From: an uncultured Bacteroides sp.
GTDB lineage: Bacteria; Bacteroidota; Bacteroidia; Bacteroidales; Bacteroidaceae
Length of the DNA stretch: 39,031 nt
Assembly: GCA_949289265.1 (NCBI GenBank)
Contig: CASENE010000042.1
Span: 64,859-103,889 of the forward strand
Reading direction: 5' to 3'
In this document: positions 546-4,792 of the stretch, in pieces
Numbering within the stretch: position 1 is the first letter of the stretch
Layout: the number at the start of each line of letters is the position of its first letter
Position numbers and translations under genes: made by a program
Notes under the pieces: generated by a model
Told to the model about the DNA's origin: nothing
Seen by the model: the letters and a program-made list of their open reading frames with translations, nothing else
Database searches by the model: none

Positions 546-1532
546 ATGATAGAAAAACTGATTGTACTCGAAGACATCGACCCCGTCATCTTCTACGGCG
601 TGAACAATGCCAACATGCAGCTCGTCAAGGCGCTGTATCCCAAGCTGCGCATCGTGGCGCGGGGCAACGTCATCAAGGTGCTGGGCGACGAGGAGGAGAT
701 GTGCGCCTTCGAGGAGAACATCCTCAAGCTGGAGAAATACTGCGCCGAATACAACCAGTTGAAGGAAGAGGTCATTATCGACATCGTCAAGGGCAACGCC
801 CCGCAGGCGGAGAAGAGCGGCAACGTCATCGTGTTCAGCGTCACGGGCAAGCCCATCATCCCGCGCAGCGAAAACCAGCAACGCCTGGTGGACGCCTTCC
901 GCCAGCACGACATGGTGTTCGCCATCGGCCCGGCGGGTTCGGGCAAGACCTACACCGCCATCGCCCTGGCCGTGCGCGCCCTGAAGAACAAGGAGATCAA
1001 GAAAATCATCCTCTCGCGCCCCGCCGTGGAGGCAGGCGAGAAACTGGGCTTCCTGCCGGGCGACATGAAGGAGAAGATAGACCCCTACCTGCAACCCCTC
1101 TACGACGCCTTGCAAGACATGATACCCGCCGCCAAGCTGCAAGAGTACATGGACCAGAACGTCATACAGATAGCCCCCCTGGCCTTCATGCGCGGACGGA
1201 CGCTGAACGACGCCGTGGTCATCCTGGACGAGGCGCAAAACACCACGTCGGCCCAAATCAAGATGTTCCTCACCCGCATGGGCATGAACACCAAGATGAT
1301 TGTCACCGGAGACATGACGCAGATAGACCTGCCCTCGTCGCAAGTGTCCGGACTGGTGCAGGCCCTCCGCATCCTGAAGGGCGTGAAGGGCATCAGCTTC
1401 ATCGAACTGAACCAGAAGGACATCGTAAGGCATAAACTCGTGACGCGGATAGTAGAAGCCTACGACAAGTATGAAGCAGCTACGAGCTACAAGCTACGAG
1501 CTACAAGTACAGAAGAAAGCAAAGAGCATTAA
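546..1532 (+). CDS. phoH: PhoH family ATPase
   Basis: A 328-residue cytoplasmic P-loop NTPase of the PhoH family, whose members are linked to RNA metabolism and phosphate starvation. Walker A is GPAGSGKT (128-135) and Walker B ends in DEAQ (228-231), followed by the family's TTSAQ and TGDMTQIDLP motifs. The open frame extends upstream to 306, but that part is low-complexity repeat DNA. The ATG at 546 gives the usual N-terminus (MIEKLIVLED). The conserved fold ends near residue 310. The last 18 residues (from AATSYKLRAT) are encoded by a heptad repeat, which looks like an insertion that replaced the original stop. The four helix bundle gene starts 6 bp after the stop. Confidence 0.93.
   Translation: MIEKLIVLEDIDPVIFYGVNNANMQLVKALYPKLRIVARGNVIKVLGDEEEMCAFEENILKLEKYCAEYNQLKEEVIIDIVKGNAPQAEKSGNVIVFSVTGKPIIPRSENQQRLVDAFRQHDMVFAIGPAGSGKTYTAIALAVRALKNKEIKKIILSRPAVEAGEKLGFLPGDMKEKIDPYLQPLYDALQDMIPAAKLQEYMDQNVIQIAPLAFMRGRTLNDAVVILDEAQNTTSAQIKMFLTRMGMNTKMIVTGDMTQIDLPSSQVSGLVQALRILKGVKGISFIELNQKDIVRHKLVTRIVEAYDKYEAATSYKLRATSTEESKEH
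1478..1507 (+). repeat. Heptad repeat, left arm of inverted pair
   Basis: Heptads of the form GCTACRA lie inside the 3' end of phoH. The reverse complement matches 1935-1964 at 29 of 30 positions. Confidence 0.85.
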
Positions 1533-1537
1533 GAGCT

Positions 1538-1906
1538 ATGGGAGAAATAAGGACACATAAAGATCTAATCGTTTGGCAGAAAAGCATAGAACTCGTCATG
1601 CTCATATACGGCTATACCAAGCAATATCCCAAGGAAGAGTTGTATGCCATGACCAGCCAGGTCCGAAGGTGTGTGACCTCCATTCCTGCCAACATAGCCG
1701 AAGGGTCGGGCCGTAGGAACAAGGCTGAGTTCATGCAATTCTTGCACATCGCCTTAGGCTCTGCCTGCGAACTGGAAACTTTCTTGGTCATATCTCAAAG
1801 GCTGCAATACCTGCGAGAAGAAGAATATCAGACAGCCAATGCCTTGCTGAACGAAATCATCAAGATGCTGAGCTGCCTGATTAAATCAGTAAAACATTCA
1901 ACTTAA
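1538..1906 (+). CDS. Four helix bundle protein (23S rRNA intervening-sequence protein family)
   Basis: A 122-residue protein with the hallmarks of the four helix bundle family found in 23S rRNA intervening sequences and scattered in Bacteroidetes genomes. The motifs are HKDLIVWQKSIELV (7-20), YAMTSQVRRCVTSIPANIAEG (about 36-56) and EFMQFLHIALGSACELET further on. Relatives include the accessory Avd protein of diversity-generating retroelements, a basic nucleic-acid-binding bundle. No reverse transcriptase or template repeat is present here. The gene is less GC-rich than phoH and purC, lies 5 nt after the phoH stop and is bracketed by inverted heptad repeats, which suggests lateral arrival. The molecular role of such stand-alone copies is unknown to me. 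Confidence 0.92.
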   Translation: MGEIRTHKDLIVWQKSIELVMLIYGYTKQYPKEELYAMTSQVRRCVTSIPANIAEGSGRRNKAEFMQFLHIALGSACELETFLVISQRLQYLREEEYQTANALLNEIIKMLSCLIKSVKHST

Positions 1907-1934
1907 TACTAAACATCTACGTACTGTCAAGCTA

Positions 1935-1964
1935 CTCGTAGCTCGTAGCTTGTAGCTCGTAGCT
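1935..1964 (-). repeat. Heptad repeat, right arm of inverted pair
   Basis: TAGCTYG heptads lie 14 bp upstream of purC. They pair with 1478-1507 (29 of 30) and could form a very long stem across the four helix bundle gene. Confidence 0.85.
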
Positions 1965-1978
1965 AAAAAAATAAAGAT

Positions 1979-2923
1979 ATGAAAGCATTAACTGAAACCA
2001 ACTACACCTTCCCCGGACAACAATCGGTGTACCACGGGAAAGTACGCGACGTGTACAACATCAACGGCGAGAAGCTCGTCATGGTGGCAACAGACCGCAT
2101 CTCGGCCTTCGACGTCATCCTGCCCAAAGGCATCCCCTTCAAGGGACAAATCCTGAACCAGATAGCCGCCAAGTTCCTCGACGCCACCACGGACATCTGC
2201 CCCAACTGGAAGCTGGCCACGCCCGACCCCATGGTGACCGTAGGCGTATTCTGCCAGGGCTTCCCCCTGGAGATGATTGTGCGCGGCTACCTCTGCGGCT
2301 CGGCCTGGCGCGCCTACAAGAGCGGCGTGCGCGAAATCTGCGGCGTCCGCCTGCCCGAAGGCATGAAAGAGAACCAGAAGTTCCCCGTGCCCATCATCAC
2401 CCCGACCACCAAGGCCGAGATAGGCGAGCACGATGCCGACATCTCCAAGGAAGAGATACTGAAGCGCGGCCTCTGCACGCCCGAGGAATACGCCGTGCTG
2501 GAAGACTATACCCTGCGCCTCTTCGAGCGCGGCACGCAGATCGCCGCCCAGCGAGGGCTCATCCTGGTGGACACGAAATACGAGTTCGGCAAGCACGACG
2601 GCAAGATTTACCTGATGGACGAGATACACACGCCCGACTCCAGCCGCTACTTCTACAGCGAGGGCTACGAGGAACGTTTCACGAAGGGCGAGCCGCAACG
2701 CCAGCTCTCCAAGGAATTCGTACGCGAATGGCTGATGGACAACGGATTCCAAGGCAAGGAAGGCCAGCAGGTGCCCGAGATGACGGACGAGATTGTCGCC
2801 TCCATCAGCGACCGCTACGTCGAGCTCTACGAGCACATCACGGGCGAGAAGTTCGTGCCGCAGGACACCGAAGACATCGCCGCCCGCATCGAGCGTAATG
2901 TGACGAATTATCTCAACGCATAA
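1979..2923 (+). CDS. purC: Phosphoribosylaminoimidazole-succinocarboxamide synthase
   Basis: SAICAR synthase joins CAIR and aspartate using ATP in purine synthesis (cytoplasmic). The 314 residues match the longer PurC form. Recognisable segments are KVRDVYN near residue 21, [20 protein letters not shown], the [10 protein letters not shown] segment and [13 protein letters not shown] with [13 protein letters not shown] near the C-terminal third. The ATG at 1979 is the only sensible start and follows an A-rich leader. The neighbour order phoH-purC-menG-aroE is, to my knowledge, common in Bacteroides, with the heptad cassette inserted between phoH and purC. purM, of the same pathway, is at 27.1 kb. 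Confidence 0.96.
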
Positions 2924-2958
2924 GCGCTTGGAAGCCCCCGCGAGTGGAAGACCGGCGC

Positions 2959-3054
2959 ACCCCACGGGTGGGTGTCGCCCCTACCCCACGAGTGACCCTT
3001 CATGATACCCCACGAGTGACCCCTGATGATACCCCACTCGTGGGGTATCACACC
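2959..3054. repeat. 24-bp tandem array, 4 units
   Basis: Units start at 2959, 2983, 3007 and 3031. Each begins ACCCCAC and carries a GAGTG or GGGTG core. The last unit turns into a hairpin: GATACCCCAC (3028-3037), a 2-nt loop, and GTGGGGTATC (3040-3049). The array lies between purC and the methyltransferase gene. The hairpin has no T-run, so a terminator role is uncertain. Confidence 0.8.
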
Positions 3055-3157
3055 CCCTTTACAAGGCCTTCTGGCGGGGGTGACGTCGGATGTACCGAAA
3101 CTATCCGCACGGAAGGCCGGAGGAGTTTTCATGTAAGAACGTATAACCATTATCCCT

Positions 3158-3892
3158 ATGGAATACCCCCAAGAGAAAGTGATGCCCTACGGCAGCGAGG
3201 GCAAGAAGGCGGAACAGGTGGAACGCATGTTCGACCACATCGCCCCGGCCTACGACCGCCTGAACCACCTCATGTCCCTGGGCATCGACCGCCGCTGGCG
3301 CCGCCGGGCCCTCCGCTGGCTCCAGCCCTTCCGCCCGCAGGAGGTGATGGACGTGGCCACGGGCACGGGCGACTTCGCCCTGCTGGCCTGCCGCATGCTG
3401 CAGCCCCGCGCGCTGACGGGCATCGACATCTCCGAAGGGATGATGCAGGTGGCACGGCAGAAGGCGCGCGAGGCCGGGCTGGACGGGCGCATCCGCTTCC
3501 GCCGCGAGGACTGCGAGGCGCTCACGTTTGCCGACGCGTCGTTCGACGCCGTCACCGTGGCCTTCGGCATCCGCAACTTCGAGCACCTGGACCTGGGCCT
3601 GCGGGAGATGTGCCGCGTGCTGCGCCCCGGCGGACACCTGGCCATCCTGGAACTGTCCACGCCCGAGCGCTTCCCCATGCGTCAGCTCTACCGCCTCTAT
3701 TCGCGCCTCATCCCCCTGGTGGGACGCCTCGTGTCGCACGACCGCAACGCCTACACCTACCTGCCCGAGAGCATCCGCGCCTTCCCGCAGGGCGAGGTGA
3801 TGAGCCGGAGCCTCCGCCGCGCCGGCTTCTCCGAGGTCAGCTTCCGGCGGCTGACGTTCGGGGTGTGCACGCTGTATATGGCGACGAAATAA
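3158..3892 (+). CDS. menG: Demethylmenaquinone methyltransferase (UbiE/MenG)
   Basis: A SAM-dependent class I methyltransferase of 244 residues that carries out the last methylation of menaquinone. [21 protein letters not shown] (24-44) is the UbiE signature, [10 protein letters not shown] (65-74) is SAM motif I, and [11 protein letters not shown] and [15 protein letters not shown] are later family signatures. In an anaerobic Bacteroidales the quinone would be menaquinone, hence menG is preferred to ubiE. It is followed directly by heptad repeats (from 3899), whose first unit lies 7 bp after the stop. Confidence 0.94.
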
Positions 3893-3898
3893 GTATTC

Positions 3899-4025
3899 AG
3901 CTACGAGTGACGAGCGACAAGCTACAAGTTTACCCGTAGCTAATTGGAACAAGCATAACACTCGCAGCTCATAGCTCGTAGCTTGCAGCTCGCCACTTGT
4001 AGCTCGTAGCTCGTAGCTTGTAGCT
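3899..4025. repeat. Inverted heptad pair without a gene (TAGCTYG family)
   Basis: The left arm 3899-3928 and right arm 3996-4025 are inverted copies matching at 25 of 30 positions. More heptads fill the middle (3957-3991). It is the same repeat family that brackets the four helix bundle gene at 1478-1964, but holds only about 67 bp between the arms. It fills the gap between menG and aroE, and transcription across it would give a long hairpin. Confidence 0.8.
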
Positions 4026-4045
4026 CCATTAACACCCCTCATATC

Positions 4046-4792
4046 ATGGACAAATACGGATTAATCGGTTACCCCTTGGGACATTCGTTCTCGGTAACCT
4101 ACTTCAACGAGAAATTCCAGTCGGAGAACATCGACGCAGAGTACGTAAACTTCGAGATTCCCCGCATCGAGGACTTCATGGAGGTCGTCGACGAAAACCC
4201 CAACCTCTGCGGCCTCAATGTCACCATCCCCTACAAGGAGCAGGTCATCCCCTACCTGGACGAGCTGGACCCGGACACGGCCAAGATAGGCGCCGTCAAC
4301 GTCATCAAGATTATCCGCCAGGGCAAGGGCAAGGTGAAGCTGGTGGGCTATAACTCGGACATCATCGGCTTCACCCAGTCCATCGAGCCTTTGCTGCGCC
4401 CCTGCCACCGACAGGCCTTGATACTGGGCACGGGCGGCGCGGCGAAGGCCGTCTACCACGGGCTGGAGAACCTGGGCATCAAGAGCGTCTACGTGTCGCG
4501 CACCAAGCGGAGCAACGACGTGCTGACCTACCGGGAGCTGACGCCCGAGGTGATGGCGGCCCACACGGTCATCGTCAACTGCACCCCCGTGGGCATGTAC
4601 CCCAAGGTGGACGAATGCCCCGAAATCCCCTACCACCTGCTGACCTCCGACCACCTGCTGTACGACCTGCTGTACAATCCCAACGAGACCCTCTTCATGA
4701 AGAAAGGCCGCATGCACGGCTCCGCGGTGAAGAACGGGCTGGAGATGCTGCTGCTCCAGGCGTTTGCGGCGTGGGAGATTTGGCAGCGGTAA
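4046..4792 (+). CDS. aroE: Shikimate dehydrogenase
   Basis: Reduces 3-dehydroshikimate to shikimate with NADPH in aromatic amino acid synthesis. It has 248 residues, slightly shorter than E. coli AroE (272). The substrate-binding segment GYPLGHSFS (8-16), catalytic Lys64 in LNVTIPYKEQ and Asp105 in GYNSDIIGF are all present. The dinucleotide loop is LGTGGAAKAV and the late motif is DLLYNPNETLF. It is followed 12 bp later by the hydrolase gene, probably on the same transcript. Confidence 0.95.
   Translation: MDKYGLIGYPLGHSFSVTYFNEKFQSENIDAEYVNFEIPRIEDFMEVVDENPNLCGLNVTIPYKEQVIPYLDELDPDTAKIGAVNVIKIIRQGKGKVKLVGYNSDIIGFTQSIEPLLRPCHRQALILGTGGAAKAVYHGLENLGIKSVYVSRTKRSNDVLTYRELTPEVMAAHTVIVNCTPVGMYPKVDECPEIPYHLLTSDHLLYDLLYNPNETLFMKKGRMHGSAVKNGLEMLLLQAFAAWEIWQR

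Follow-up and report, generated by a model that had tools for sequence, protein, structure and literature searches.

The window, that is, the whole stretch of 39,031 nucleotides from an uncultured Bacteroides sp. that was analyzed, carries a single gene between phoH and purC, as the original prediction had it, and this gene is bracketed by inverted arrays of a heptanucleotide (Table 1). In a profile search, its product scored 134.6 bits against PF05635, for which the curated cut-off is 33.8, thereby confirming that it belongs to the four-helix-bundle (4HB) family of the rRNA intervening sequences. The arms, anticipated as inverted heptad arrays of about 30 bp with one mismatch, are real, each being 32 nt long with 97% complementarity to the other, and the window contains 14 matches of the two-heptad word AGCTACRAGCTACRAG (with up to two mismatches), where 100 shuffles gave 0.03 on average. 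Between the arms, the G+C content is 44.7%, as against 58.3% in phoH and 59.6% in purC, in agreement with the A+T-rich insert that had been proposed, and the left array, rightly placed at the 3′ end of phoH, is part of the phoH reading frame, coding for the C-terminal residues of PhoH. A phoH-tail origin of the stretch between the left arm and the start of the 4HB gene was favored in only one or two of eight comparisons, in that these beat most codon shuffles (G033 against G020, with 4 of 500 shuffles as good, and the window genome, G000, against G062, with 14 of 500); the other comparisons gave no such result. Treated as RNA, positions 1470-1972 had a predicted fold of -159.1 kcal/mol with the arms paired, corresponding to a z of -5.3 relative to 100 shuffles (mean -124.4, sd 6.6). 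No rRNA family in Rfam matched positions 1300-4200; a mir-21 match there fell under the gathering score and was read as chance. That arms flank the gene thus stands for 1478-1964, but they are not confined to it, as a pair of the same heptad lies in the ubiE-aroE gap and the word has 107 exact matches in the genome. Two further sets of repeats were noted: in the gap downstream of purC (2982-3050), a pair of 24-nt direct repeats (TACCCCACGAGTGACCC...) precedes an inverted copy that is exact over 16 nt, and upstream of phoH (394-478) lie two imperfect 41-nt repeats (GGGATTATAA...) with a spacing of 44 nt.

Table 1. Position and strand of the cassette, its host genes and a second array pair in the window.
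Feature	Position	Strand	Remarks
phoH, upstream host gene	546..1532	+	last codons made up of the left arm plus a short tail
Left heptad arm, AGCTACR four times plus part	1478..1509	+	within the phoH 3′ end
4HB/23S_rRNA_IVP gene, PF05635, 122 aa	1538..1906	+	
Right heptad arm	1933..1964	-	inverted copy of the left arm, 31/32 complementary
purC (SAICAR synthetase), downstream host gene	1979..2923	+	
Same-heptad array pair without 4HB gene, ubiE-aroE gap	3899..4025	+ and -	+ arm 3899-3929, - arms 3961-4025

Among 21 phoH regions, one from the window and 20 from further genomes of the genus, a 4HB gene or its remnant occupies the phoH-purC junction in three, namely the window, G033 (L283) and, as a decayed copy, G011 (L291). 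Of the other 18, 17 have a short spacer and one (G064, L298) has a different gene, which is small and by eye glyoxalase/VOC-like. Empty junctions, which the original prediction had suggested looking for, are present in genomes whose PhoH is 98% (G015), 98% (G016) and 95% (G062) identical to that of the window, and the remnant is present in G011, at 92%. Presence of the 4HB gene therefore does not track PhoH similarity, and with such a pattern repeated insertion, transfer and loss are indistinguishable. The array pair between ubiE and aroE is filled also in G016 and absent from G015. Comparison with insert-free relatives by eye, at ubiE-aroE and at phoH-purC, revealed no target-site duplication, there being no recent insertion among them; nor did the expected exact cassette ends emerge, as the arms in carA (see below) enclose host coding DNA.

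Inverted Heptad Arms Around 4HB Genes in Many Phyla

For each 4HB gene, the upstream 260 nt were aligned to the downstream 260 nt in reverse complement, and the score was compared with those of mismatched partners (the locus's own 95th percentile), with an additional threshold of at least 14. The possibility, raised with the original prediction, that flanking arrays would be absent around other family members was not borne out, as inverted arms scoring at least 14 were found at 125 of the 167 unclipped 4HB loci in three samples combined, with the proviso that the samples may share genomes and that L161 and L379 look like one locus in G066. The order sample comprised 101 PF05635 places, of which 72 were read and 65 were unclipped, the 29 left out being mostly weaker; 50 of the 65 scored at least 14, 55 exceeded their own 95th percentile and 33 beat all 64 partners. 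The many-phyla sample, consisting of the best 80 of at least 569 relatives and including by record title Clostridia, Proteobacteria, Patescibacteria, Elusimicrobia, Acidobacteria, Phycisphaerae and others, yielded 53 of 77 unclipped loci at 14 or more, 66 above the 95th percentile and 38 that beat all partners. The third sample was drawn from the class of G066, the genome of L161 (Thiohalocapsa, a gammaproteobacterium). With the Xanthomonas protein 2gsc as query, 60 of 369 genomes matched and 30 loci were kept, 25 of them unclipped; in this sample only, the downstream flank was shifted to the stop codon for partial matches. Here 22 of 25 scored at least 14, although 6% of mismatched pairs did so as well, some words being alike; 20 of 25 exceeded the 95th percentile and 13 beat all partners. 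In a cyanobacterial set, made up of 10 of 32 plasmid records together with L216 and L217 (both also among the 77), 11 of 12 loci scored at least 14 and nine beat every mismatched partner. Control neighbor genes from the first two samples reached 14 in only four of 233 cases and exceeded the 95th percentile in 14 of 233, approximately the rate expected by chance, and two of those four controls (L155 and L171) have heptad-like arrays of their own.

The remaining 42 of the 167 loci scored below 14, and some have no arms (for example, L116, L108, L095, L216, L221, and L195). The armless loci are mostly low-scoring family members in the order sample, but not so in the many-phyla sample. Eight loci whose arms scored no more than 10 were compared with Rfam, yielding no rRNA and two riboswitches, both in L157. 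That 4HB genes are associated with inverted heptad arms is, in our estimation, nearly certain, and it points to a widespread protein-and-repeat partnership that has so far been without explanation. Some cyanobacterial plasmid 4HB genes with heptad arms lie inside CRISPR operons (L363:89-2253, L367:13-2736, L368:1-2691), in the orders cas6-4HB-cas4 and cas10/cmr2-4HB-cmr3. At L391:1360-2010, a decayed 4HB gene with arms of GGGAATC, the Xanthomonas heptad, lies between genes that by eye resemble accB and accC.

The arms are constrained in period and length. A period of 7 was found in 37 of 50 arms of the order sample, 35 of 53 of the many-phyla sample and 22 of 22 of the G066-class sample (94 of 125 overall), and a period of 8 in nine of the 50 and 15 of the 53, respectively; the period-7 peak was absent from random windows. 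Most arms measure 27-32 nt, with a median of 4.3 units and tails either way, and the outer length of the cassette has a median of 467 nt (103 loci). When the upstream arm and the complement of the downstream arm were read on the gene strand, G exceeded C in 93 of 103 loci and purines exceeded pyrimidines in 78 of 103, indicating that one strand is distinguished.

Gene-Less Hairpins, Exchanged Words and the Protein-Word Link

In the window genome, the 107 matches of the two-heptad AGCTACR word (50 on the plus and 57 on the minus strand) compare with none for the reversed word. Inspection of the stretches around the first 100 of the 107 listed matches, single near-matches being skipped, yielded 28 clusters, of which 25 run plus then minus (convergent), three are single-stranded and none is divergent. 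Only one of the 28 holds a 4HB gene. The genome has two PF05635 matches, the window cassette and L002, and the latter is flanked on both sides by arrays of GAATGAA, not AGCTACR; the remaining AGCTACR clusters are therefore without a PF05635 gene. Seven displayed AGCTACR hairpins have an identical loop, which contains no 4HB gene, and identical outer sequence, implying that gene-less copies have spread. Local tandem duplication of an arm together with host flank was also found (L033, L039, and L007, as well as ubiE-aroE of G016). Some AGCTACR hairpins (L015, L023, L034, L036, L038, L041, and L045) are surrounded by an outer frame running from TAAATGATAATTTA-like to TAAATTCCTATTTA-like sequence, with a GC hairpin, which may represent a separate MITE-like family acting as target. 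In one array pair of the window genome (L040:1920-2327), the long loop seems by eye to enclose a further inverted repeat, as would result from insertion of one element into a second.

The heptad word (all words being named by eye) may differ between genomes at one and the same site. One orthologous site is occupied, within a common outer frame (TAAATNATAATTTA to TAAATTCCNATTTA), by hairpins of AGCTACR in G033, of GAATGAA in G015 and of an 8-nt word in G062. The corresponding hairpin of the window genome, also of AGCTACR, lacks this frame, and no hairpin is present there in G016. In carA, whose family was checked by profile, two in-frame arms lie about 100 nt apart with host codons as the loop (L312:1432-2580, L329-L358). 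Among the 24 of 30 genomes parsed for carA, with degraded and nested classes assigned by eye, the arms are of AATTGAC in G016, G033, and G001, of GAATGAA in G062, G030, G031, and G005, and of GAGAGTT in G012; four further forms are degraded or one-sided, G007 has a GAATGAA hairpin at the left position, and 11 are short and armless. Both arms change word together, which neither plain slippage nor the simple insertion of a closed hairpin readily explains, and insertion of arm, loop and second arm as one closed hairpin was rejected on account of the host codons in the carA loop. Exchange might instead begin with an insertion into one of the arms already present, the other arm then being repaired by template switching.

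The words tend to go with the proteins whose genes they bracket. In a Mantel comparison of protein and array similarity that covered 108 loci and left out 39 of the 5778 pairs because their flanks were homologous, r was 0.145 and the best of 300 permutations 0.097; after correction for G+C, the values were 0.147 and 0.096. At a protein similarity of at least 0.6, the median array similarity was 0.50, as against 0.21-0.25 below, and array similarities of at least 0.6 made up 28% of the 102 pairs in that range, 5.5% of those with protein similarity of 0.5-0.6, and about 1% or less below 0.5. This is a modest effect, to which the recent common descent of entire cassettes may contribute, shared ancestry being only partly controlled. 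Words are also specific to genomes. AATTGAC (as an 18-mer) was found in two of nine genomes, G001 and G016, which are the two known to have an AATTGAC-armed 4HB gene, and the word of L158 occurs only at its own 4HB gene. AGTGGTT is less clear-cut: in G065 it is confined to the 4HB gene, and G066 has three exact sites; elsewhere, it has 11 matches in the window genome, in which a cognate 4HB gene was not found, and one each in G016 and G031. TAGGCAG arrays have 73 matches in a Mesorhizobium genome and none in eight others, and one of the 11 Mesorhizobium array regions opened encloses a 4HB gene (L200/L301). Across 61 genomes, some of them incomplete and with 4HB genes read in part, AGCTACR arrays occur in nine, with an AGCTACR-armed 4HB gene or remnant seen in three; G016 (39 matches) and G007 (23) have the arrays with no cognate 4HB gene seen. 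GAATGAA arrays occur in 18 of the 61, with a GAATGAA-armed 4HB gene seen in G000 and G031 only, and the reversed control gave one match (G013). Arrays thus often outlive or outrun the cognate 4HB gene.

A Model of the 4HB Protein and Its Hairpins, and Alternatives

The explanation that we propose, and regard as about evenly poised between right and wrong, is that the 4HB protein and the heptad hairpins form a cognate unit, in which the protein reads the heptads and the hairpins spread as a miniature element. The association itself is shown by the sequences, whereas we infer protein-heptad binding and hairpin mobility. Several findings speak against the model: many arrays have no cognate 4HB gene in sight, the carA loop is host coding sequence, neither target-site duplication nor movement was seen, the Mantel effect is modest, 42 of the 167 loci score below 14, and the L158 word does not occur away from its own gene. 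The solved relatives 2gsc, which is XCC0516 of Xanthomonas campestris ATCC 33913, and 2rld, from Bacteroides thetaiotaomicron, have five chains per entry, which suggests a pentamer, and the 4HB protein is probably pentameric; a stretch of 2rld is identical to the L063 protein of G001, whose gene has arms of about four AATTGAC units. Such a pentamer may read tandem heptads on one strand, of either RNA or single-stranded DNA, perhaps with one heptad per subunit. A ring binding in this manner would hold the period constant and cap the array length while leaving the word free, as is observed. The protein would then assist host enzymes in copying hairpins, gene-bearing or gene-less, to new sites, in a REPIN-like partnership in which the 4HB protein replaces the transposase and host enzymes do the chemistry. 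This reading is suggested by the five-chain relatives, the role of Avd in retrohoming, and the stem, excision and suspected mobility of the rRNA intervening sequences (IVS). Through the arm stem of about 30 bp, the 4HB message could also be excised from the operon transcript, as in the rRNA IVS. The original idea of a protein-plus-stem unit holds up, and the original interpretation as a whole is partly supported.

Other explanations have to be weighed against this model. It is possible, though unlikely, that the cassette operates as RNA with no function in mobility, RNase III cutting the arm stem to free the 4HB mRNA from host operons, the protein binding its own stem for autoregulation or protection, and the gene-less hairpins being decayed cassettes. 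The 23S IVS of Coxiella, of 428 nt with a 28-bp stem and an S23 ORF, is excised by RNase III (PMC4990558), and the cassettes are of similar size, with the arms paired in the predicted fold of the window. However, hairpins without PF05635 far outnumber cassettes in the window genome, seven of them with a common 4HB-less loop, and the exchange of heptad words at orthologous sites also argues against an RNA-only unit. A rather improbable alternative takes the repeats to be passive, arising by slippage and kept palindromic by quasi-palindrome template switching, with 4HB genes hitchhiking in the hairpins. The tandem duplications of arm and host flank would fit such an origin, as would array numbers that vary widely between species and arrays that persist without a cognate 4HB gene, yet it leaves unexplained why 4HB genes in particular are bracketed when their neighbors are not, why period and length recur while the sequence is free, and why word and protein are linked.

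The 4HB protein might itself be the recombinase of a minimal transposon ending in the arms, that is, the cassette of the original prediction taken literally. We hold this to be quite improbable; the terminal inverted arms, the foreign composition and the gene-free sites in close relatives are in its favor, but target-site duplication was not seen and the carA arms enclose host codons. No nuclease or transposase motif is known in the PF05635 family. Finally, the arrays might be G-quadruplex regulatory elements unconnected with the 4HB gene, quadruplex formation by GGGAATC in Xanthomonas and GGGGA(C/T)T in Nostoc being the subject of PMC4692102. However, words without runs of G (AATTGAC, GAATGAA, and AGCTACG) have a similar period, number of units, inverted pairing and tie to 4HB genes, and as many words are not G-rich this reading, which seems to us scarcely credible, was set aside.

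To the broader proposal we give somewhat less than even credence: that many bacterial heptanucleotide arrays, including the cyanobacterial STRRs, GGGAATC of Xanthomonas and those of the window's genus, belong to a single system in which pentameric IVP/4HB proteins act on them, each protein reading its own 7-nt word in the manner of a ring on a tandem code, and together make up a new class of miniature hairpin elements, mobile or self-copying and requiring no known transposase, of which the rRNA IVS is a special case. If this is true, PF05635, a large orphan family whose solved structures are unexplained, would gain a function; heptad repeats reported separately in cyanobacteria, Xanthomonas and Geobacter, and explained differently, would have a common origin; and the origin and movement of rRNA IVS would become directly testable. 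A protein-word code, should it prove readable, could provide a sequence-tunable nucleic-acid binding scaffold.

Relation to Known Systems

The 23S rRNA IVS with an S23p/IVP ORF has its protein family in common with the window cassette. Its length of 428 nt is comparable to the cassette median of 467 nt, both end in an inverted stem (28 bp in the IVS), and a mobile origin has been proposed for it (PMC4990558). However, an IVS sits in an rRNA gene, whereas the window cassette sits between phoH and purC, and tandem heptad arms are known here from the cassettes, whose cognate gene-less hairpins are dispersed. For REPIN/RAYT, co-evolution of protein and repeat has been proposed, with a repeat class tied to a nearby single-copy gene (PMC3116915). 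The AGCTACR clusters resemble REPINs in being dispersed, inverted pairs of short repeats that would form hairpins, 25 of the 28 running plus then minus. They differ in that the gene between the arms encodes a PF05635 four-helix bundle and not a RAYT tyrosine transposase, and in that the arms are tandem heptads of free word on both sides of the gene. Retrohoming of diversity-generating retroelements requires Avd, a homologous four-helix-bundle protein, which acts in a nucleic-acid-copying system (PMC10053308). However, the window protein scored 32 bits against the bAvd-like model, below the curated cut-off of 40, and the immediate neighbors of its gene are phoH and purC rather than a reverse transcriptase.

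The heptanucleotide families described in cyanobacteria (STRR), Xanthomonas, Geobacter and Beggiatoaceae are like the 4HB arrays in consisting of dispersed 7-nt tandem units. GGGAATC of Xanthomonas has a ‘clear preference for four units’ and forms 70 and 75 convergent pairs in two genomes (PMC4692102), and GGACCGG of Geobacter metallireducens occurs as four heptads in 49 elements (PMC2700814), both in agreement with the arm median of 4.3 units; the TAACTGA sets of Beggiatoaceae are reported as direct repeats, with one inverted case (PMC4679880). The available parts of these three papers contain no link to 4HB genes, and a literature search, with subscription papers and preprints mostly outside its reach and hence no proof of absence, found, among the papers listed, no publication tying 4HB/IVP genes to heptad arrays. 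The parts of the system are of known kinds; what appears to be new is that a variable heptad word is coupled to PF05635 across phyla.
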